Below are positions 2,383 to 14,625 of a stretch of 26,490 nucleotides of DNA, piece by piece. The stretch's first letter is position 1, and every line of letters begins with the position of its first letter. Source of the DNA: a virus. The notes under the pieces are model-generated. The model saw only the letters and a program-made list of their open reading frames with translations. It did no database searches and had not been told where the DNA came from. The DNA is taken from positions 1-26,490 of the IMG/VR virus record IMGVR_UViG_3300030117_000663; one strand, written 5' to 3'. Both the position numbers and the translations under genes were made by a program.

Positions 2383-4536
2383 TTATTTAACACCAGGATA
2401 ATGACCTTGATTAGGCATATTTTCTGGCGCAATTACTGCATCTTTAATTCCTCTTGGTTTTGGTGTATACGATTTTGGTATACTATCTGTCTTGATATAG
2501 TCGTCCATGCTCTGACCCTCTCTTAATTCTGTTCCGTCTTTTAATCTATATAAAATAACTTTCCAAGCGTGTCTACAATAAACACCACCTTTAAATCTAA
2601 ATAAATCATAAGGACGACCTTTATGTCCTAGCTGTCTGTTCACACCTTCACGACTTGCTTTGTCTATGTCTTCTAATCTATAAACAAAACCTGCTTTTGC
2701 TAGTCGCATCATATTCTTACAGAATGTTCTAGTTGATTTGCTAGGTTTTCTGCTCTTTTTGATATATTTAAAACGAACCCTATAATAAGATTTATCTAAT
2801 GAACTAGGTTGATCTTCTTTGCTTCTTATTTCATCAGCAAACTTTTCTTTGTTTTCTTTAATTAATCTTTTTGCCCAATCTTCATAATCTTCAATTAATC
2901 CTTCGTCTTGCTCATCAACAATTTCCCAGACTTCTTCGTCCATTTGCTCACCTTGTAAATTTTCAAATAATTCATCAAATTCTTCATCAGATAAATCTTC
3001 ACGAACGCCTTCAATTTCTTTTACTTTTTTTGATGCCCAAGACTGACCAGCATCACCACCCCATAATGCCCAAGCTATTCGTCCTGCACTTGGAAAACCT
3101 TCTTCACCAGGATAAAAACCTTCTGCTTTCTTATCTACTTCGTGTCTTGCAAAAAAACTGTTCATACGAGAAATGGTATCAAACGAAAGATTATCTCCAT
3201 TCTTGATGTTTGTTGCACGAGCAACTGCAACCTGCGTTCCACCACGTCCGTATTCTCTACGCCATTCTAAACCCTTTTCAGCTTCTTCAATCATTCCTTT
3301 TGTTGGTTTAGTGTCTATGTCTTGCAAGTCTTTAAATTCTTGCTTTAAATTATCTGTATCTATATTTTCTTTAGTAACACCTTCTTTTTCTTGATCTTCT
3401 TCTGATTGTGTCTTTGTAACTTCTAAATCAATGAAATCTGCAGGTTTAAGCGATTTAAAGTATAAATCAAGGTTTATGTCATTAACCTTAAAAATCTTAT
3501 TTAAACCCTTTAAAAGTGTTGTTTGGAAGGGTATTATAACTGTATTATTAAATAAGCTATAAGCATCACGCAATTCGTCTGCATTATTGCCTAATCCACC
3601 ACCTTCTGCACGAATACCAAATAAAATTGGTGACGTAACTCTGTGTCCTGCGAGTATTTGCGAAACAGATTGTTTTGACATTTCAACCCAAGCAGACTGT
3701 GCATCATTCATTTGTATAGGTTCAATAATTGGTGCAGTTTCTTTTCCATCATTAAATGTAATTAGAATTTTACCTGCATTTCCTGTTCCTGCAAATTTTT
3801 GATTTAATTGTCGTTCTATGGTGCGACGTTCCTCATCTGTAGGGATTCCATTAGAAAATCCAACGTGCATAGAAGGTGTCATTCCTGATGTTATATTAGA
3901 TAAATGAAATTGTGCAATCTCTAATTCCATTTGAATCCAATCTGTTGCTGCAACGTAATCTGGTGCAAAACCATAAAACAATGCAGGGTTTTTATCTCTT
4001 ATCATTAAGATTTGTGATGCTTGACTTCTGTCTTCTTTGTCAAATGCTTTATATGCTCTAGGTTTATATTCAGATTTTTTATGATTTGCCCAATCAGCAG
4101 AATAATAATAATGCTCTATTTCTCCGTCAATCATTTTACCAGATCGAATATATTGGGCAGGTATATGCTTCATTTTAGCTATCTTGCTTCTATCTCTTGA
4201 CCAAATTACATTTACATAACAACCACCAAAGAGCTTTAAATCTAATGCTAAATCCTTTAATACATCATCATCTGAATTGTGCAATAATTCTGTTAGTCTT
4301 AAATAAGATTCTTTTGTTGCTTCTGATTCGTCAACATTAGTTGCTGCTATTCCTTCACCATAGATCATTGCACCGATTGACTTTATTAATGCACCATTGA
4401 TTGCACTACCTAAAAACAATTCTAATAGATAGTTTGGATATAAATTGTTTTCGCCAAAGCTGATCCATTCTTGATTAGTTTTTTCTACTAAATGTGGGAT
4501 GTTGTAATGTGATAATTTTACTAAATTTAAATTCAT
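2383..4536 (-). CDS. Portal protein with two extra C-terminal domains
   Basis: Residues 1 to about 375 resemble PBSX-type portals (motifs WISFGENNLYPNYLLELF, IPAQYIR, LAGHRVTSPILFGI), the 12-mer ring through which DNA enters and leaves the head. After an acidic linker, about 409-505 hold a module with GLEWRREYGRGGTQVAVARA, FFARHEVDKKAEGF and RIAWALWGGDAGQSWA; a second acidic linker (to about 580) leads to a Cys-containing module (RTFCKNMM, VYRLEDI, YCRHAWKVILY). From memory, these modules are attached to proheads proteases or other structural proteins in related phages, so the fusion to portal is notable. At 717 residues it is much longer than usual portals (400-550). The start overlaps the preceding stop as ATGA. 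Confidence 0.85.
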   Translation of the reverse strand: MNLNLVKLSHYNIPHLVEKTNQEWISFGENNLYPNYLLELFLGSAINGALIKSIGAMIYGEGIAATNVDESEATKESYLRLTELLHNSDDDVLKDLALDLKLFGGCYVNVIWSRDRSKIAKMKHIPAQYIRSGKMIDGEIEHYYYSADWANHKKSEYKPRAYKAFDKEDRSQASQILMIRDKNPALFYGFAPDYVAATDWIQMELEIAQFHLSNITSGMTPSMHVGFSNGIPTDEERRTIERQLNQKFAGTGNAGKILITFNDGKETAPIIEPIQMNDAQSAWVEMSKQSVSQILAGHRVTSPILFGIRAEGGGLGNNADELRDAYSLFNNTVIIPFQTTLLKGLNKIFKVNDINLDLYFKSLKPADFIDLEVTKTQSEEDQEKEGVTKENIDTDNLKQEFKDLQDIDTKPTKGMIEEAEKGLEWRREYGRGGTQVAVARATNIKNGDNLSFDTISRMNSFFARHEVDKKAEGFYPGEEGFPSAGRIAWALWGGDAGQSWASKKVKEIEGVREDLSDEEFDELFENLQGEQMDEEVWEIVDEQDEGLIEDYEDWAKRLIKENKEKFADEIRSKEDQPSSLDKSYYRVRFKYIKKSRKPSKSTRTFCKNMMRLAKAGFVYRLEDIDKASREGVNRQLGHKGRPYDLFRFKGGVYCRHAWKVILYRLKDGTELREGQSMDDYIKTDSIPKSYTPKPRGIKDAVIAPENMPNQGHYPGVK

Positions 4537-5096
4537 ACTGTGTCATTTGTTAAATAAATGCTTTCTGTGTCTGCATCATTAGTTGTATATTCTTTGTATT
4601 TTACAGATTCAAAGTTTAAGTTTGTGTCGGTGCTTTCACTACCTGTCATGTTAAATATGCCTGTATATAAAGTAGCTGTTGCATTAGCAGGGTTTAATTC
4701 GCCACTAGATAAGGTTTCAAAAATAGTTAGATCATAAAAACCTAATGGAAATTCTGTTGTTCCCACTCTTACTTTTCCTTCTGACAAATCTTCTGTTTGT
4801 GTGCTTGATACACTATAAAAAAAAGGCAAACTAATATATCTTTCATGCTTGTCAATTCCTGTTCCTGTCGGATAGCTTATTTCTCTAGTAAAATACTTCA
4901 CTTTGCCTGTTTGTTGACTTTCTAACTTAAACAAAAAATAAGGATATGAAATGACATAATATGTAACTCCACTAATAACTGTTGAAACTATCGTTGGTGT
5001 AACAGTAAAATATGGTGCTACATTAAAAATAGTATTAGCTGTTGATCTCCATGTTGGAGAATCTGGCGTGTCATTATATATAATTTCCTGTATCAT
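4533..5096 (-). CDS. Virion-associated protein, paralogue of the gene at 5236-5676
   Basis: The 187-residue product matches its upstream neighbour block by block: YPYFLFKLESQQTGKVKYF, DKHERYISLPF, TTEFPLGFYDLTIFE, LYTGIFNMTG, YKEYTTNDADTESIYLT. The shared fold is probably an all-beta domain with a short N-terminal extension. Related proteins with this Y-x-VYE-like core are, from memory, encoded beside structural genes in many Bacteroidota phages, but their position in the particle is not known to me. The start shares one base with the stop of a 45-residue protein, and the stop shares ATGA with the portal start. A head-completion or tail-tube accessory role is inference. Confidence 0.75.
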   Translation of the reverse strand: MIQEIIYNDTPDSPTWRSTANTIFNVAPYFTVTPTIVSTVISGVTYYVISYPYFLFKLESQQTGKVKYFTREISYPTGTGIDKHERYISLPFFYSVSSTQTEDLSEGKVRVGTTEFPLGFYDLTIFETLSSGELNPANATATLYTGIFNMTGSESTDTNLNFESVKYKEYTTNDADTESIYLTNDTV

Positions 5097-5233
5097 TAAA
5101 TACTCTTATAATAATTTAACATTTCTATAATGCTTTCTGGCATGCCCTCTAATTCTTCTTCAGACTTATTTAATAATGGTTTTATAAACTCATTAAACAT
5201 AAAACTTTTCTCAAAATAATCTTTATAAGTCAT
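5096..5233 (-). CDS. 45-residue acidic helical protein
   Basis: This short frame fills the gap between the two paralogues: it starts two bases after the upstream stop and its TAA overlaps the next ATG by one base (TAATG). The product is acidic and probably helical, with FNEFIKPLLNKSEEELEGMP and a C-terminal IIEMLNYYKSI. It resembles loosely the small protein at 5669-5815, which precedes the other paralogue and also has an FI-x-P motif and ends in NYY. A paired chaperone or adaptor for the following protein is possible. No known family recognised. Confidence 0.65.
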   Translation of the reverse strand: MTYKDYFEKSFMFNEFIKPLLNKSEEELEGMPESIIEMLNYYKSI

Positions 5234-5235
5234 AA

Positions 5236-5676
5236 TTAATTGTTTGCAACAGCTGTTATGTAAACAGATTCATTTTCACTATCGTTCACTGTGTATTCAG
5301 TATAGTCAACTGCTAAATTATTTGCTTGTGCTGTTAAATTCATTAAACCATTATATACAACAGGAAGTCCTGTCGGATCAAGATTGTAAGTTCCGTCATT
5401 TTCATAAATAGTAACGTCATACATTCCGTATGGATAATTAGTATTTCCTAAATTTAAAACACCAACTATAGGAATAGATAATGAGGAAACAGTAAATTGA
5501 ACTTTTACATATCTTTCTTTGTTATCATAGCTAGTAGCTTTTGGTAGAGCATACAAAGTTTTTCCAGATAATTGACTTTTAAAAGAAAACAAAGGTGGAT
5601 ATAAATAATACAATTGACTCATTTCATCAAAGAAATTTATATAAAAGTCTTTAAAAACGCCTGTAAAGCTAGTCAT
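5236..5676 (-). CDS. Virion-associated protein, paralogue of the gene at 4533-5096
   Basis: From the ATG at 5674-5676 the product is 146 residues. That start makes the usual short overlap (ATGACTAG) with the preceding small gene; an ATG at 5706 would place it deep inside that gene. Blocks shared with the downstream paralogue are YPPLFSFKSQLSGKTLYAL, DNKERYVKVQF, TNYPYGMYDVTIYE, VVYNGLMNLTA and YTEYTVNDSENESVYIT. Divergence outside these blocks shows the duplication is old. Role is unknown; location between major tail protein and portal suggests a particle component. Confidence 0.75.
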   Translation of the reverse strand: MTSFTGVFKDFYINFFDEMSQLYYLYPPLFSFKSQLSGKTLYALPKATSYDNKERYVKVQFTVSSLSIPIVGVLNLGNTNYPYGMYDVTIYENDGTYNLDPTGLPVVYNGLMNLTAQANNLAVDYTEYTVNDSENESVYITAVANN

Positions 5677-5815
5677 TTGCATCATAATAATTAAAGTATT
5701 CATCAAACAAGTCTGGAAAATTATCCAAAATCATTTGTTTTGTTTTTTCATCTAATTTATTTGGATCAATAAAAACATAATCTTTAGTTTTATATTTCTC
5801 CTTTAATGTCCACAT
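5669..5815 (-). CDS. 48-residue small protein, relative of the one upstream
   Basis: The frame starts at ATG 5813-5815 inside the end of the preceding small gene and stops at TAG 5669-5671 inside the start of the next. The N-terminus MWTLKEKYKTKDYVF mirrors MAWKLKKEYKGKSID of the protein encoded just before it. Its centre (LDEKTKQMILDNFPDLFDEYF) is an acidic helix pattern, and it ends NYYDAND. The tight overlaps on both sides and the homology to its neighbour argue that it is translated. Function unknown; a small assembly factor is plausible. Confidence 0.68.
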   Translation of the reverse strand: MWTLKEKYKTKDYVFIDPNKLDEKTKQMILDNFPDLFDEYFNYYDAND

Positions 5816-5963
5816 TCTTTTTCTTCTTTTTTTCTTGTGTAAATAGCTTATCTCTTACTTCTTTTCTTAAACCTTCTATTTGCTTTTGTGTTAGGTCATC
5901 TAAAGGCATTCTGATTGAATCAATGCTTTTACCTTTATATTCTTTTTTTAATTTCCAAGCCAT
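5790..5963 (-). CDS. 57-residue basic-tailed small protein
   Basis: This is the first gene after the major tail gene terminator. Its product has an N-terminal MAWKLKKEYKGKSI motif shared with the next small protein, a helical centre (LDDLTQKQIEGLRKEVRDKLF) and a lysine-rich end (EKKKKKN). It overlaps the next gene by 26 bases. The conserved 11-base element TTTATATTTAT (minus strand) sits 11 bases before its ATG, so this gene probably starts a new expression unit that reads through to the portal and beyond. Function unknown. Confidence 0.68.
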   Translation of the reverse strand: MAWKLKKEYKGKSIDSIRMPLDDLTQKQIEGLRKEVRDKLFTQEKKKKKNVDIKGEI

Positions 5964-6059: not shown

Positions 6060-6659
6060 TTATGGCAATGTTCCTACTGTAATAGTTAAATTAGCTTCAT
6101 CAGATAATCCGTCAAATGGATATTTAGCTGTTGCTGCACCTGCACTAGGAGGAAGCTGAATTAAAGCATTCTTTTCTTGAGCTGCCCATTCAATTGTATA
6201 ACCATTTTGGTCGCCCATAGCCGTCCCTGTTATAACTGTTCCACCAGATACATGACAACCGTTATCAATTCCTAATAAGAAAACATTATCGTTCTGGTCT
6301 TGAACAAAAATTTGACTTCTTGAATACGCCATTAATCGTAATTCATTAGTCATATCGTGATCTATTTTTTGTAAAGTTACTGATAAAGTTTGTTCGAAAA
6401 ATGTTGTTCCGTTAGCATTATCAGAATTAATATTTACAGTCATTGAACTTAAATTAGGCACTAAATCATATTTAAAAACCTCAACAGTTCCACCACAACA
6501 AGACCAAGTTGCAAAACCTGCCGTTGTCATTTCTGTTGTGTTTATATTGGCAACTGCATTAATGTTGTTACTGTATGCTTTACAAATGTAAATAGCTTTC
6601 AATCCACCAATAGTGTCTTTACAGTCTATTAATCGTCCTCTTGTAATATCACAAGCCAT
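6060..6659 (-). CDS. Putative major tail (tube) protein
   Basis: The 199-residue product starts MACDITRGRLIDCKDTIGG, a beginning I associate with abundant structural proteins of Bacteroidota phages. The middle has paired cysteines (WSCCGGTVEVFKYDL), a helix-like LSVTLQKIDHDMTNELRLM segment and an RSQIFVQDQNDNVFLLG strand pair. The GTAMGDQNGYTIEWAAQEK ending resembles the last strands of tail tube folds, where a bound-copy surface follows GTA-x-GD-x-xGY. It lies between the capsid gene and the portal cluster and has its own hairpin terminator, which fits high expression. A head decoration protein is the main alternative. Confidence 0.65.
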   Translation of the reverse strand: MACDITRGRLIDCKDTIGGLKAIYICKAYSNNINAVANINTTEMTTAGFATWSCCGGTVEVFKYDLVPNLSSMTVNINSDNANGTTFFEQTLSVTLQKIDHDMTNELRLMAYSRSQIFVQDQNDNVFLLGIDNGCHVSGGTVITGTAMGDQNGYTIEWAAQEKNALIQLPPSAGAATAKYPFDGLSDEANLTITVGTLP

Positions 6660-6680: not shown

Positions 6681-6710
6681 TAATAAAAGGGGAGTATATT
6701 ACAACTCCCC
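6681..6710 (-). terminator. Rho-independent terminator after the major capsid gene
   Basis: A perfect 7-bp stem, GGGGAGT/ACTCCCC in the plus strand (6689-6695 with 6704-6710), has an 8-base loop. On the minus strand it is followed by TTTTATTA (6688-6681). It is about 15 bases past the capsid stop at 6725 and before the next start at 6659. Partial read-through would set capsid mRNA above that of later genes. Confidence 0.85.
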
Positions 6711-9471: not shown

Positions 9472-10863
9472 TTATAATGTTGATTGAATATCCAATTCTT
9501 CTTGCAATGCTTGAGCATTAGAAATATCGTTTTCAACTACGAATGCTTGAACAGGTTGTGCCTCTGTAATTCCTTGAGGTGATATAGTTTCCAAATTAGG
9601 TATTAAACCACCTATTCCACTCCCTAAAGGTGTAGAAGATGTAGAGGATTGGGGAACATTTGTTGAAGCACCACCACTTGCTGTATTTTCAGGATTAGTA
9701 GATTTTATTCGTGCAACATTAGCCAAACCTGCTGCAACTATCCCTGCTGCAGAAATAGCCCCAAATATTCCACCTTGTGCAAGTGCTTTATTTGCACCTG
9801 CATAAGTATCTATTAATGCTTGAGCAATAGCTAAACCTTTTGCAGCTTTACTGTTTTGTCCTAGTGCATTTGCTATATTTCCTAATGCACCTATTATTAT
9901 TTGCTCTTTAGCTTCTTGTGTTAGTTCAGTTGTTTTTACTTCTGCTTCGCCTGTTTCTTTTACAATTTTTTCAGTTTTCTTTAAACTTTCTTGATATTCT
10001 TTTTCTAAAGAATTAAGATTGGTTAATTGTTCTGATCGTTGACCTGTAATCCTTTCTTCTAAATCTGCTAATTCTGTTTTAGCATCTATTAATGCAACTT
10101 GTAAATCTATATTATCTTTGTTTCTTGATAATTCTAATGATGCTAAATCTATTTTTTTCTGTGCTAAAGCTTGTTCTTTTTCAAATTGTTCATTTAATAC
10201 TTGACCAAGTTTTTCATTTGCTGCAATTCGTTCTTCAAAAGTTAAACTGATATCATCTCTAATTTGTCTTTGCAACTCTGCTTCTTTTTGAAAAGTTAAC
10301 TGCAATTGCCTTTGTTGTGCATCTGCTAACTTTACCTCATTACGCATATTGGTTGTTGCTTTTGCAAACTCAACAGTTGCTTTTGCACCCTCTTTTGCGT
10401 TTTTAATAAAATCAGAAAAACTTTCATTGTTACCCACTACTGCTTCTTTTACACCATTAAAAGATTCTGCTGCTAAATCTCCTGCTTCCTTAAATTCTGC
10501 TCTTAAAACCTTTCCTACAGCTTTTCCTAAAAGACCCAACCCTTTAACTACCGAAATAACAACTGTTCCTATTTTTGTCATTACATCACCGAACACAGCA
10601 GAAGCGATATTTACCTTGTCTAAAATTTCTTGGTTAGCTGTAAATTTGTCTGCTAAAAACTGTAATGCAGAAATAACAGCACCAATACCAATTGCTTTCC
10701 ATGCAAGCCCAATACCTCTAAACCCTGTAGCTAATTTGTTAGTTCCTTGTTCGGTTTTTTTTGCAGCTCTGCTTATGTTTCCTAGTTCTTTTTCTACTCT
10801 ATCTAATCTCTTTATTGCGTCTTCTGCATCTAATTCTAATTTTACTGTTTTTGTTTGCGACAT
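9472..10863 (-). CDS. Tape measure protein (short)
   Basis: The 463-residue product has the normal architecture of tail length-determining proteins. It begins with an N-terminal coiled coil (VKLELDAEDAIKRLDRVEKE) and hydrophobic Gly/Ala-rich segments (LAWKAIGIGAVISALQFLAD; VVISVVKGLGLLGKAVGKVL). A long charged coiled coil follows at about residues 185-310 (QQRQLQLTFQKEAELQRQIR and onward). The C-terminal Ala/Gly-rich part (LAIAQALIDTYAGANKALAQ; GIFGAISAAGIVAAGLANVA) is typical of Bacteroidota phage tape measures. At about 1.5 angstrom per residue it would set a tail near 70 nm. Its place downstream of the tail-tip genes and upstream of the head genes is unusual. Confidence 0.87.
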   Translation of the reverse strand: MSQTKTVKLELDAEDAIKRLDRVEKELGNISRAAKKTEQGTNKLATGFRGIGLAWKAIGIGAVISALQFLADKFTANQEILDKVNIASAVFGDVMTKIGTVVISVVKGLGLLGKAVGKVLRAEFKEAGDLAAESFNGVKEAVVGNNESFSDFIKNAKEGAKATVEFAKATTNMRNEVKLADAQQRQLQLTFQKEAELQRQIRDDISLTFEERIAANEKLGQVLNEQFEKEQALAQKKIDLASLELSRNKDNIDLQVALIDAKTELADLEERITGQRSEQLTNLNSLEKEYQESLKKTEKIVKETGEAEVKTTELTQEAKEQIIIGALGNIANALGQNSKAAKGLAIAQALIDTYAGANKALAQGGIFGAISAAGIVAAGLANVARIKSTNPENTASGGASTNVPQSSTSSTPLGSGIGGLIPNLETISPQGITEAQPVQAFVVENDISNAQALQEELDIQSTL

Positions 10864-10864
10864 A

Positions 10865-11038
10865 TTATCTAAAAATTATTCTAATTATTTCTTTAAACAT
10901 TCTTCTAAAACTTGTGTGATATTCTTGCATTCCATAAACAAAATCTAATTCTTTGTCTTTGTAATCTACTAATTGTAAATGGTCAATACTTGGAATGATT
11001 AAGTCTGCTGTTGTTTCTATATATTTTTTTAGTTCCAT
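10865..11038 (-). CDS. 57-residue protein between tail hub and tape measure
   Basis: The ATG (11036-11038) overlaps the stop of the large tail protein by ten bases (ATGGAACTAA), and the TAA at 10865-10867 is one base from the tape measure start. The product is soluble and probably helical, with acidic N-terminal half (MELKKYIETTADLIIPSIDH, KDKELDF) and a basic, amphipathic end (RRMFKEIIRIIFR). Its place beside the tape measure would suit a small tail assembly factor, but I recognise no family. Confidence 0.7.
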   Translation of the reverse strand: MELKKYIETTADLIIPSIDHLQLVDYKDKELDFVYGMQEYHTSFRRMFKEIIRIIFR

Positions 11039-14000
11039 ATTAAAAAATCTCTGTTTTCAAATTCTATATTAGCACCATTTTGGAATAACGCCCAGTTCTC
11101 ATCATAAGGGAAATCCATATTAAACACTCTATTTACTTGAATTTCTGCCGTTAATGTCCACACCCTTTTAGTGTCTGTTTGACTATCTCTTATACCAAAT
11201 AATAATGCACCATTTGCGTTATTGACTATGTTTAGTGTGCAGGTCACAGGGTTTGCACCTTGTCTAAGTTGAAAATCAACCTCACCACCTGCTGCCCCAA
11301 TTTGAGTAACTACATTTTCTTTATTAACAAAAGCTGTAAAATAAGATAAGGCATCAGTTGTTCCCCTTGTGTATGTTGCACTTTTGCCACCCACCACTGT
11401 TGTAACTGCTTTGACTCTAATAACCATATTAGAATTTAAAGGAACGCCCAATGCACTGCTCATTACATTTCCTTCTGGATATGCGTAACTTTCTGTGTTA
11501 CCTATTGTATGCCCCATCAATACTATTCTGTGAGATTCACCATCTAAAACAGGCGTTCCCCTTTGCGTGTTGCGATACTTAATAACAATATCATCACCAA
11601 AATAAGGTAATATTGATTGACTATATTTGTTATTATTTACACCTCTAATGAGGGGCGTTTTTAATCCTTGAATTTTGCCACGAATAAGAGATTTTACATT
11701 GTTAGCATTTAAAATAGCTAATGCAGATGTTGCGTTCTTATATCTAATTGGTTTACTTCCTGCATTTGGCAAACAACGATACAAGCCTTCTTGGTTAGGA
11801 TAAGGACTTTCGAACCAATTAATCTCGCCACCATTGCACTGGCAACATTCTGGATCGGCATAGGAATAAATACCCCAGTCAGTAGAAGAAAGATCTACGC
11901 AATTTGGGTTGTCTTCTGGACACCAAAGATAGAAAATACCTGCTGCTGCATCATTGCTAATTTCTTCACCTTGAACTGACGATATAACATAATTACAATC
12001 GTTGCAAGGGCTTAAAGTATCTAATACTTTTATTAATACAACCTTTGTTGATGCTTTACCATTTACTTGATAATTCTGTATAGTTAAAATTCTCCAATAT
12101 GTATCTTTTACAAAAATTTCATCAGCAAAACTAAAATTGAAAATGTCTGCTTCATCTAAATTAAAGTAGCATTCCATAATTCTAGCTTCATCATTATATA
12201 TGTTATCTAAATATGGTTTCCAGTATTTGCCGTATAGAGCATTTTTCCACCAACTACCAGTAAAACCATCATAATTAAAAATGCTTAACTGACCATATAT
12301 AGGTGTTGCACCACCCCAGTATAAACTTTTAGTATCACTATTTAAACTATACGTTGTGAATGTGCCTGTTGGTTGCACATCAAAAGCACTACAAACAGGG
12401 TAACGTGAAAAACTATAAGCAACAATGGTTTCGCTTTCTGATGAATGCAAGTAATAAGTCAGATTGTTTTGGTTGCCATCTATAGGTTGTGCAGGCGTTC
12501 CACTATAATAGAACAATTTTGGTTTTGTCTTTTTAATTATATTCTCAAACACACCCTGTGCTACCTCTTCATAACTATATTCATATTGAACAGTAAAATT
12601 AGGTAAATGAGTAGAAATTGATTCATCTTGATTGACAAATACTTGACTATTTATATAGGGAGAAAAAACGCTTTCAATTTTCATTTCACCCTGTGCAAAA
12701 TCATTATTAAAATCTTTTACGTTTTGTTTACCATAAACATTAATTTCTGGATATCTTTCTTTGAATGATTTATTATATAAATCGTCATCTTCTGAATCTG
12801 TAAATTCTAATCTTGTTTTTTGTAATGCCGTTGTATCTTTGACAACTACTTCTTTTGAAATATCTAATTTATTTGTCCAATCTTTTATTTCGCCACTTGC
12901 TATAAAATCATTATAAGGTTCAATTATAAGATTAGTGTCATTGTCTGGATCAGTTAAAACAACCAAATTAAATCTTTGTATAATATCTCTTAAAAAATCT
13001 CTTTGCGTTAAATCTGGATCAATGCAAGAAGGAATATCAATAGTTGCACCAAGTAATGCACTATCTGTTGGCAACCATTCACATCTTAAACTAATGAAAT
13101 CAGTTCCACCACACATAACATCTAAATCTGGAGATAATAATGTGGTGTGTTTACACATGTGAATAGATGCAGGATCACCACCTGTTCCAACTGTCAACCC
13201 ACTAAAACGCATCATTATCATTATTTTTTGTCCAACATCAGCATTAGAAATATCAATAACATTTTCTAATAGAACTTCTGCAGGATTAGAACTTGGTGCG
13301 TTCCAATATGTAGGCGTTATAACCCAAGAGGTCTCAGACCCTTCAATTACATCATCATAATCAACAGATAAGTCATCATTTACATTAACTGCATAATATG
13401 TAATTCGTGGCATATACAAAGCCCCATTTGACAAATAACCTTGTATATTTATAAATTCTGGAATGTGGCGAATTGTGATCTGTGTCATTGTGTCCGTTGC
13501 CTTAGTGAAATTTGGCGAATAAGTATATTGCCACAATCCATCTTGATCTGTTGGAACTGAACAACCTGTATCTGGGGTATTGAAATTATTTGCCGTAACT
13601 GATCGAGTAAACGAATCACCACTTGTTGTGCTTGTAACAGAATATTCATAATTATCAACAACAGACTGCAAAGACAACCCAACTTGCATTATTCCACTCG
13701 TTGCCGTAAAACCTGTCGTTGTTGGCAAACCTAATGATTCTAAATGATTACCTGTTGTCATAAACAATTTTCCAAAATACTTTTCAGAAGCATAGTCACC
13801 AGTTCCATCTATAAAAGCTGACGTATAAGAAAAACCCGCCTTTGCAAGTATTGTTTTAAATATGTTTTTTATTTGTAATGCAGGTCTAAATTGACTTAGT
13901 GGCGTTGTAGCACTCCAAGTTGTCTCAAAGCCCCAAGAAGAAACTAGCGAATCTGCTTCTGCCTGATCCATTCTTAAATACCTTTTAACTGCCGTTCCAT

Positions 14001-14625
14001 CGCTTAATTGGTCAGAATCATTGTAGTAAAACCCCTCTCTTGTAATTGACATAGGATAAACAACTTTTGAAACACCTGCATCTGCATCTGCTAATGATGT
14101 TCCTGCTGCGTTATTTAGCGTTGATATCCAAGAATTATAAAGAGTATTATTCGTTGAATTAGTATAAAAGAATTGATGGTTTAAAGAAGCGTCATAAGTT
14201 CCGTCTGTATTTTTAAAAATATCTTTCAACCTTTGTTCTCCAATAATGCTAAAAAGTGATGCACTACTAGAAAGCAAAACAACTTCGTAACATTGTGCTT
14301 TTTGATATACTGCTTTTAATTGTAATGCACCTTCAAATTGTGGTGTTGTTCCAACATATAAGACTGCATCAAATTTTGTTCTTGTATTAAAAACTAAAGT
14401 GTCTAAGTTGACATTATACCAATCTTGAAAGAATTGATTATTATTGTCTGTAAATGGCAACTTAAATGTTTGCGAATAACTACCTTTTCTTGTTTCTGGT
14501 TCTTTAATATCTGAAAATTGATAATTGATAGATATATTGGGTGATTCCTGCAAATCTAAATTATAAGCTGTTGTCGAAGTTGATGACGTTGTTTCTTTTC
14601 TATATGCAACTAACCTTACATTCAT
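11029..14625 (-). CDS. Large tail-tip or baseplate protein
   Basis: At 1198 residues this is the largest product. Its N-terminus has a pattern I recognise from Bacteroidota phage tail proteins (LQESPNISINYQFSDIKEPE, then SYSQTFKLPFTDNNNQFF). Around residues 540-620 a hub-like domain appears (LTQRDFLRDIIQRFNLVVL, TNLIIEPYNDF, IKDWTNKLDIS), resembling the gp27/Tal class that forms the ring at the tail tip. A Cys cluster follows at about 880-945 (SPCNDCNY, CPEDNPNC, DPECCQCNGG), and the C-terminal 250 residues look beta-rich, as in a receptor-binding or carbohydrate-binding region. It likely contacts the host surface. Start shares one base with the preceding stop (TAATG). Confidence 0.75.
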   Translation of the reverse strand: MNVRLVAYRKETTSSTSTTAYNLDLQESPNISINYQFSDIKEPETRKGSYSQTFKLPFTDNNNQFFQDWYNVNLDTLVFNTRTKFDAVLYVGTTPQFEGALQLKAVYQKAQCYEVVLLSSSASLFSIIGEQRLKDIFKNTDGTYDASLNHQFFYTNSTNNTLYNSWISTLNNAAGTSLADADAGVSKVVYPMSITREGFYYNDSDQLSDGTAVKRYLRMDQAEADSLVSSWGFETTWSATTPLSQFRPALQIKNIFKTILAKAGFSYTSAFIDGTGDYASEKYFGKLFMTTGNHLESLGLPTTTGFTATSGIMQVGLSLQSVVDNYEYSVTSTTSGDSFTRSVTANNFNTPDTGCSVPTDQDGLWQYTYSPNFTKATDTMTQITIRHIPEFINIQGYLSNGALYMPRITYYAVNVNDDLSVDYDDVIEGSETSWVITPTYWNAPSSNPAEVLLENVIDISNADVGQKIMIMMRFSGLTVGTGGDPASIHMCKHTTLLSPDLDVMCGGTDFISLRCEWLPTDSALLGATIDIPSCIDPDLTQRDFLRDIIQRFNLVVLTDPDNDTNLIIEPYNDFIASGEIKDWTNKLDISKEVVVKDTTALQKTRLEFTDSEDDDLYNKSFKERYPEINVYGKQNVKDFNNDFAQGEMKIESVFSPYINSQVFVNQDESISTHLPNFTVQYEYSYEEVAQGVFENIIKKTKPKLFYYSGTPAQPIDGNQNNLTYYLHSSESETIVAYSFSRYPVCSAFDVQPTGTFTTYSLNSDTKSLYWGGATPIYGQLSIFNYDGFTGSWWKNALYGKYWKPYLDNIYNDEARIMECYFNLDEADIFNFSFADEIFVKDTYWRILTIQNYQVNGKASTKVVLIKVLDTLSPCNDCNYVISSVQGEEISNDAAAGIFYLWCPEDNPNCVDLSSTDWGIYSYADPECCQCNGGEINWFESPYPNQEGLYRCLPNAGSKPIRYKNATSALAILNANNVKSLIRGKIQGLKTPLIRGVNNNKYSQSILPYFGDDIVIKYRNTQRGTPVLDGESHRIVLMGHTIGNTESYAYPEGNVMSSALGVPLNSNMVIRVKAVTTVVGGKSATYTRGTTDALSYFTAFVNKENVVTQIGAAGGEVDFQLRQGANPVTCTLNIVNNANGALLFGIRDSQTDTKRVWTLTAEIQVNRVFNMDFPYDENWALFQNGANIEFENRDFLIWN

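Follow-up and report, generated by a model that had tools for sequence, protein, structure and literature searches.

A recombining, unnamed gene cassette between the tail tube and portal genes of uncultured marine bacterial viruses

Among uncultured viruses of marine bacteria, one group carries a real, recombining and unnamed gene cassette that encodes one to three paralogous beta-proteins (B), preceded by small proteins (S). In the B proteins a variable body, modeled as a beta-sandwich, is joined to a conserved C-terminal tail, and exchange appears to take place at the border between the two, so that the cassette resembles an interchangeable particle accessory on a fixed anchor. Modular exchange of phage accessory proteins is already known. 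What is new is that the exchange border could be placed at a short constant tail and traced by sequence in dozens of relatives, and the interest of the system lies in this seam and in a candidate anchor, both of which are directly testable.

Gene Order and Neighboring Genes

The window analyzed here is a whole virus record of 26,490 bases. Its other genes encode the terminase large subunit, an XkdF-type protease, a scaffold-like protein, a capsid protein candidate, the portal, an endolysin and replication proteins. All five ORFs of the initial annotation (B1, B2, S1, S2, and S3) were recovered on the minus strand, and only the start of B2 was revised. The features of the region are:

2383..4536, minus strand: portal protein, 717 aa (phrog_33693, 3e-74; PF04860, 4e-14)
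4533..4607, minus strand: 3′ end of B1 coding for the constant tail, a putative recombination seam leading into the portal gene (DNA identity profile, chimaera tests)
4533..5096, minus strand: B1, beta-protein of 187 aa, 'later' clade, with a longer N-terminus and the constant tail VKYKEYTTNDADTESIYLT (tblastn, tree)
5096..5233, minus strand: S3, acidic protein of 45 aa, found only directly before B1-type copies (5/5)
5236..5685, minus strand: B2, beta-sandwich protein of 149 aa, 'first' clade, with the constant tail VDYTEYTVNDSENESVYIT (AF2 model, tree, conservation)
5669..5815, minus strand: S2, acidic protein of 48 aa, S1 paralogue, optional in relatives (hhalign, pN/pS)
5790..5963, minus strand: S1, basic protein of 57 aa, present in all cassettes, the A-rich 3′ end overlapping the next start codon
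5964..6059, minus strand: gap of 96 nt between the tube gene and S1, with a terminator-like hairpin and T tract, then an AT-rich stretch (possible promoter)
6060..6659, minus strand: tail tube protein, 199 aa, encoded upstream of the cassette (AF2 model, fold matches, homology to P12024S gp3)

The module had been placed between a tail protein and the portal, which is borne out by a tail tube fold on one side and the portal on the other. For the AF2 model of the tail tube protein (pLDDT 75), most of the top fold matches in Foldseek and nearly all of those in VIA are tail tube/Hcp proteins, and the best Z scores among solved structures are 8.5 for lambda gpV and 8.4 for SPP1. The protein is homologous to gp3 of the Nonlabens phage P12024S (E 1e-16), and a search of MAG contigs with the tube profile revealed six matches, labeled mostly as Flavobacteria or Bacteroidia. 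Two matches from a PDB sequence search with this profile were judged to be due to chance.

As relatives, 60 distinct complete cassettes from scans of viral contigs were used. The gap parts the tube gene from the cassette, and by RNA folding of the gaps a strict hairpin with a T tract was detected in 40 of the 60 gaps between the tube gene and S1, compared with 0 of 60 just before the portal; a simple hairpin scan of the window lists the hairpin of the tube-S1 gap on the plus strand only. Another terminator-like hairpin is located at 6689-6710, between the capsid and tube genes. From S1 to the portal, the genes of the relatives are mostly touching or overlapping, and in the window the portal start overlaps the B1 stop by 4 nt. 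The B, S and portal genes are probably carried on one transcript, and this single run with the portal gene favors a low copy number of B.

The portal protein itself contains a domain of ~107 residues in its C-terminal part (residues about 404-512; phrog_2859), with about 40-65% identity to portal, capsid or protease proteins of Roseobacter, Synechococcus, Vibrio and archaeal viruses, which looks like a mobile insert. The portals of the relatives fall into two size classes, 27 short ones of about 600-640 aa and 29 long ones of 700+ aa.

B Proteins With a Variable Body and a Constant Tail

The relationship between B1 and B2 proposed in the initial annotation was confirmed by pairwise alignment: they are paralogues with 41% identity (tblastn E 5e-16), and their local alignment score of 185 compares with a shuffled mean of 37 and was reached by 0 of 1000 shuffles. 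For the bodies without tails, the score was 133 against 33 for shuffled sequences. The family begins with M-x-Q, and because B2 has MMQ... at 5685, its start was set there (149 aa) and is probably not at 5676, as annotated initially.

The scans of B and of 44 B members gave only noise and no convincing Pfam or PHROG relative, no PDB sequence matched at E <= 10, and no cultured phage was matched by tblastn. Matches to T4-like baseplate wedge proteins (E 0.3) were too weak and were set aside. An assignment of B to a named family is not established. A structure search with B2 among predicted viral proteins resulted in 28 matches at E <= 1e-3, all of them uncharacterized or without a name in the tables.

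The AF2 model of B2, computed for the 146-aa form, has a pLDDT of 80.5, with a beta-sandwich spanning roughly residues 10-115. Scores are 88-96 for blocks between residues 11 and 110, and the C-terminal tail, with a pLDDT below 50, is predicted to be disordered, yet it is the most conserved part of B. The family is marked by this tail, V.Y.EYTTND.DTES.Y.T, on a variable sandwich body. Mean pairwise identity amounts to 69% in the tail and 39% in the body, and the tail is the more conserved part in 97% of 3003 pairs.

Exchange at the Border Between Body and Tail

In DNA comparisons of the window with the relatives L003, L008 and L161, the last body bins ahead of the tail are about 20-57% identical; identity then climbs to 83-100% within the tail and remains high into the portal gene. 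For six chosen B copies, chimaerism was assessed at informative sites, where body and tail were each matched against two candidate parents (Fisher test). All six turned out to be chimaeric where body and tail meet (p 1e-17 to 4e-3, below 1e-6 for five copies), with parents that had been picked after inspection of the sequences and thus not blind. The tail of the chimaeric copies goes with the downstream gene, and in some relatives near-identical flanks surround an exchanged cassette. Judged from these alignments, the body/tail border behaves as a recombination seam.

Copy Number and History of the Cassette

The cassettes consist of S1, an optional S2, one to three B genes and the portal gene, in this order. 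One B gene was found in 39, two in 19 and three in 2 of the 60 cassettes. In all 60, B is located between the tail tube and portal genes, which is partly a result of how the cassettes were collected. S1 is present in 60/60 cassettes, and a divergent S2-like ORF was hidden in five gaps. In the 56 cassettes of the close clade, the first B gene always follows directly after S1 or S2. Among the 22 later (second or third) copies, 17 follow directly after another B gene without a small gene in between, and five follow S3. S2 also occurs in many single-B cassettes and is therefore not tied to B duplication. The repeated duplication of a carrier-client pair, as suggested initially, does not agree with these counts; the sole real linked pair is S3 with the long B1-type copy, which always occur together (5/5). 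The two B paralogues may be two rings or two copies of one particle component, as was also suggested initially.

A tree built from 78 B proteins places 17 of 20 first copies in one clade (support 88/97) and 19 later or middle copies in a second one (94/86); support is moderate, and a few copies fall outside the two clades. B1 groups with copies from the relatives L003, L005, L006 and L118 (100/98). The separation of first and later copies into mainly two clades argues for an old duplication of B. In L003 and L005 the extra copy is a later-type B from another subclade and was thus gained from another lineage instead of arising by a fresh tandem duplication. Third copies are extra members of the 'later' clade that were acquired by recombination.

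Variability and Selection

For 218 pairs of single-B cassettes in which tube and portal are each at least 80% identical, the mean identities were 86% for the tube, 89% for the portal, 75% for S1 and 50% for B; in the 121 of these pairs for which the MCP was available, its mean was 70%. Pairwise dN/dS was 0.22 for B, 0.19 for the tube and 0.07 for the portal, with no sign of positive selection on B in this measure. The B value is like that of the tube, and on these values B diversity results from exchange and divergence under moderate constraint. The MCP and tube genes are also exchanged in some pairs, and therefore variability alone is no proof of B exposure.

Small Proteins S1, S2, and S3

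A kinship among the small proteins had been proposed from a shared sequence start. It holds for S1 and S2, which are paralogues (hhalign E 5e-9, probability 96%, between sets grouped by gene position; score reached by 1 of 1000 shuffles), and is marginal for S3, for which 9-11 of 1000 shuffles scored as high. With hhalign, S2 and S3 matched at E 4e-4 and a probability of 33%, S1 and S3 at a probability of 2.5%, so S3 is at best a remote and doubtful relative of S2. S2 and S3 are acidic (pI 4.5), S1 is basic (pI 9.8) and ends in poly-lysine. Conservation of the small frames in relatives had been named as a check, and all three are kept under purifying selection, with pN/pS values of 0.17 for S3, 0.42 for S1 and 0.48-0.58 for S2. 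Pfam and PHROG scans of S1-S3 and of 17 S members gave only noise.

The poly-lysine end of S1 is encoded by its A-rich 3′ end. In Bacteroidota, an A-rich ribosome-binding stretch is expected before a gene, and the A-rich end of S1 lies at that place for the next gene. The gene detected next after S1 lies in the +1 frame in 50/60 cassettes. S2 is in the +1 frame relative to S1 in nearly all cases and has its own start codon; a programmed S1-S2 frameshift is unlikely.

Likeness to Known Systems and Possible Function

In our preferred reading, to which we assign roughly an even chance, the cassette belongs to a tailed flavobacterial phage and supplies its virion with minor accessory proteins that have an exchangeable body and a constant docking tail. 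The beta-sandwich body of B would be displayed on the particle, and the constant C-terminal peptide would dock to a conserved partner in or close to the portal, neck or tail. S1 and S2, as well as S3 in the case of B1, may be translated just ahead as small partners or assembly factors. Homology in the DNA that codes for the tail would provide a seam for swapping bodies and for gaining or losing extra B genes, the outcome being phages with 1-3 B proteins of changing kind. The diversification of the bodies probably stems from contact with the host surface or from other host-variable factors. More tentatively, with a chance somewhat short of even, the cassette may form an expandable display, in which portal-linked bodies of the virion are swapped at the constant anchor-coding seam, with one docking site (or one per copy) for 1-3 domains.

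The only cultured relatives found by the tube and by the whole portal are the Nonlabens (Persicivirga) phages P12024S and P12024L, whose gp5 (phrog_31097), like B, is located between the tail tube (gp3) and the portal (gp6). Unlike B, gp5 is a single short gene of 125 aa, no S gene was seen and the body is not clearly alignable. In a P12024S-like clade, a single short gene of 108-144 aa is found at the place of B. The B profile matches this family in the C-terminal half, with the tail as part of the match (hhalign E 2.9e-4, probability 40%), which is suggestive of a relationship, and P12024S gp5 weakly matches one of its members (41% over 46 residues, E 3e-3). The tail tube family has a second member in P12024S gp9 (L096 5953-6552; phrog_19091, 4e-95), which follows the DUF6712 protein. 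The short portal-upstream protein at L096 3031-3408 and L095 2265-2699 contains an insert like 'NRVI.DGG.FES..CL..L', which also occurs at the end of gp9.

A possible but rather unlikely alternative is that B is a connector at the portal vertex or neck, with copies around the portal or adaptor sealing the capsid join and the tail peptide binding the portal or adaptor. The B gene overlaps or abuts the portal gene, and the best VIA match of the B2 model is the attachment (Ig-like) domain of the adaptor of siphophage vB_DshS-R4C (Z 6.4, rmsd 3.6, 100 residues; PMC10276861), but this fold match is weak, its Z lying under the level that excludes chance and its identity to B being 8%. In R4C the sandwich is fused to a helical adaptor with a helical tube domain and a C-terminal hook, whereas B2 consists of the sandwich alone plus a tail predicted to be disordered, and B is encoded by a separate gene in 1-3 copies. 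Since the B2 fold matches in the PDB are weak (none at E <= 1e-3, Z under 8) and many are antibodies, the likeness to R4C may only be that of a common sandwich. In the Bacteroidota phage crAss001, the protein gp57 is specific to the portal vertex, and together with the ring protein paralogues R1-R4 it is located at the portal and neck (PMC10172136). The likeness to the cassette lies in such a paralogue set or vertex protein at this position; unlike B, the ring proteins also have a helical domain. No sequence match between B and R1-R4 or gp57 was found, and AUX, gp57 and the ring proteins are absent among the B2 fold matches listed. The B bodies are far more variable than portal and tube, which would be unusual for a buried connector, and the adaptor role is probably taken by the DUF6712 protein at 1468-2049.

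It is unlikely that B is a receptor-binding or baseplate accessory within a tail-tip adhesion device, as its gene sits between tube and portal and the record has another large variable fibre candidate (11029-14625). Swapped bodies are a typical trait of host-range genes, a single weak BFVD match carries the name tail fibre, and VIA matches were obtained to BppU of the lactococcal phage TP901-1 (4v96_AA, Z 5.7; 3uh8, Z 5.1) and to a baseplate protein of NF5 (9m8o_Q, Z 5.1), but these structural matches are at noise level. The N-terminal domain of BppU has a sandwich of similar size to that of B2; its gene neighborhood differs, no sequence likeness was detected, and BppU_N is absent among the Pfam matches of 44 B members at E <= 1.

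Less likely still is a role of B in head decoration, with many copies on the capsid. The MCP was exchanged along with the tube, small genes and B in some near-identical phages, but this joint exchange is explicable by linkage alone, and the terminator-like hairpins after the MCP and tube genes suggest separate expression. We regard it as very improbable that S1 and S2 act as tail assembly chaperones in the manner of lambda G/GT, with B as an assembly factor that is absent from the finished particle. S1 and S2 do overlap directly after the tail tube gene, and the next gene after S1 lies in the +1 frame (50/60), but S2 and B each start at a codon of their own that is preceded by an A-rich stretch, the +1 frame is not reached by a -1 slip, S2 is often absent and the tape-measure-like gene is located elsewhere.

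Under the preferred reading of B as an accessory with an exchangeable body, the tail would be the anchor. If so, a fixed docking site near the portal would accept many bodies, and assembly and host contact in common uncultured marine flavophages would become directly testable.

Other Genes of the Record

The gene order is unusual in that the tape-measure-like gene (9472-10863, 463 aa; phrog_3336, 9e-8) is upstream of those for the protease and the head. At 11029-14625 a protein of 1198 aa without a family match is encoded, which shows about 40-51% identity in relatives whose protease is 88-99.7% identical. It is a candidate fibre or other variable virion protein.
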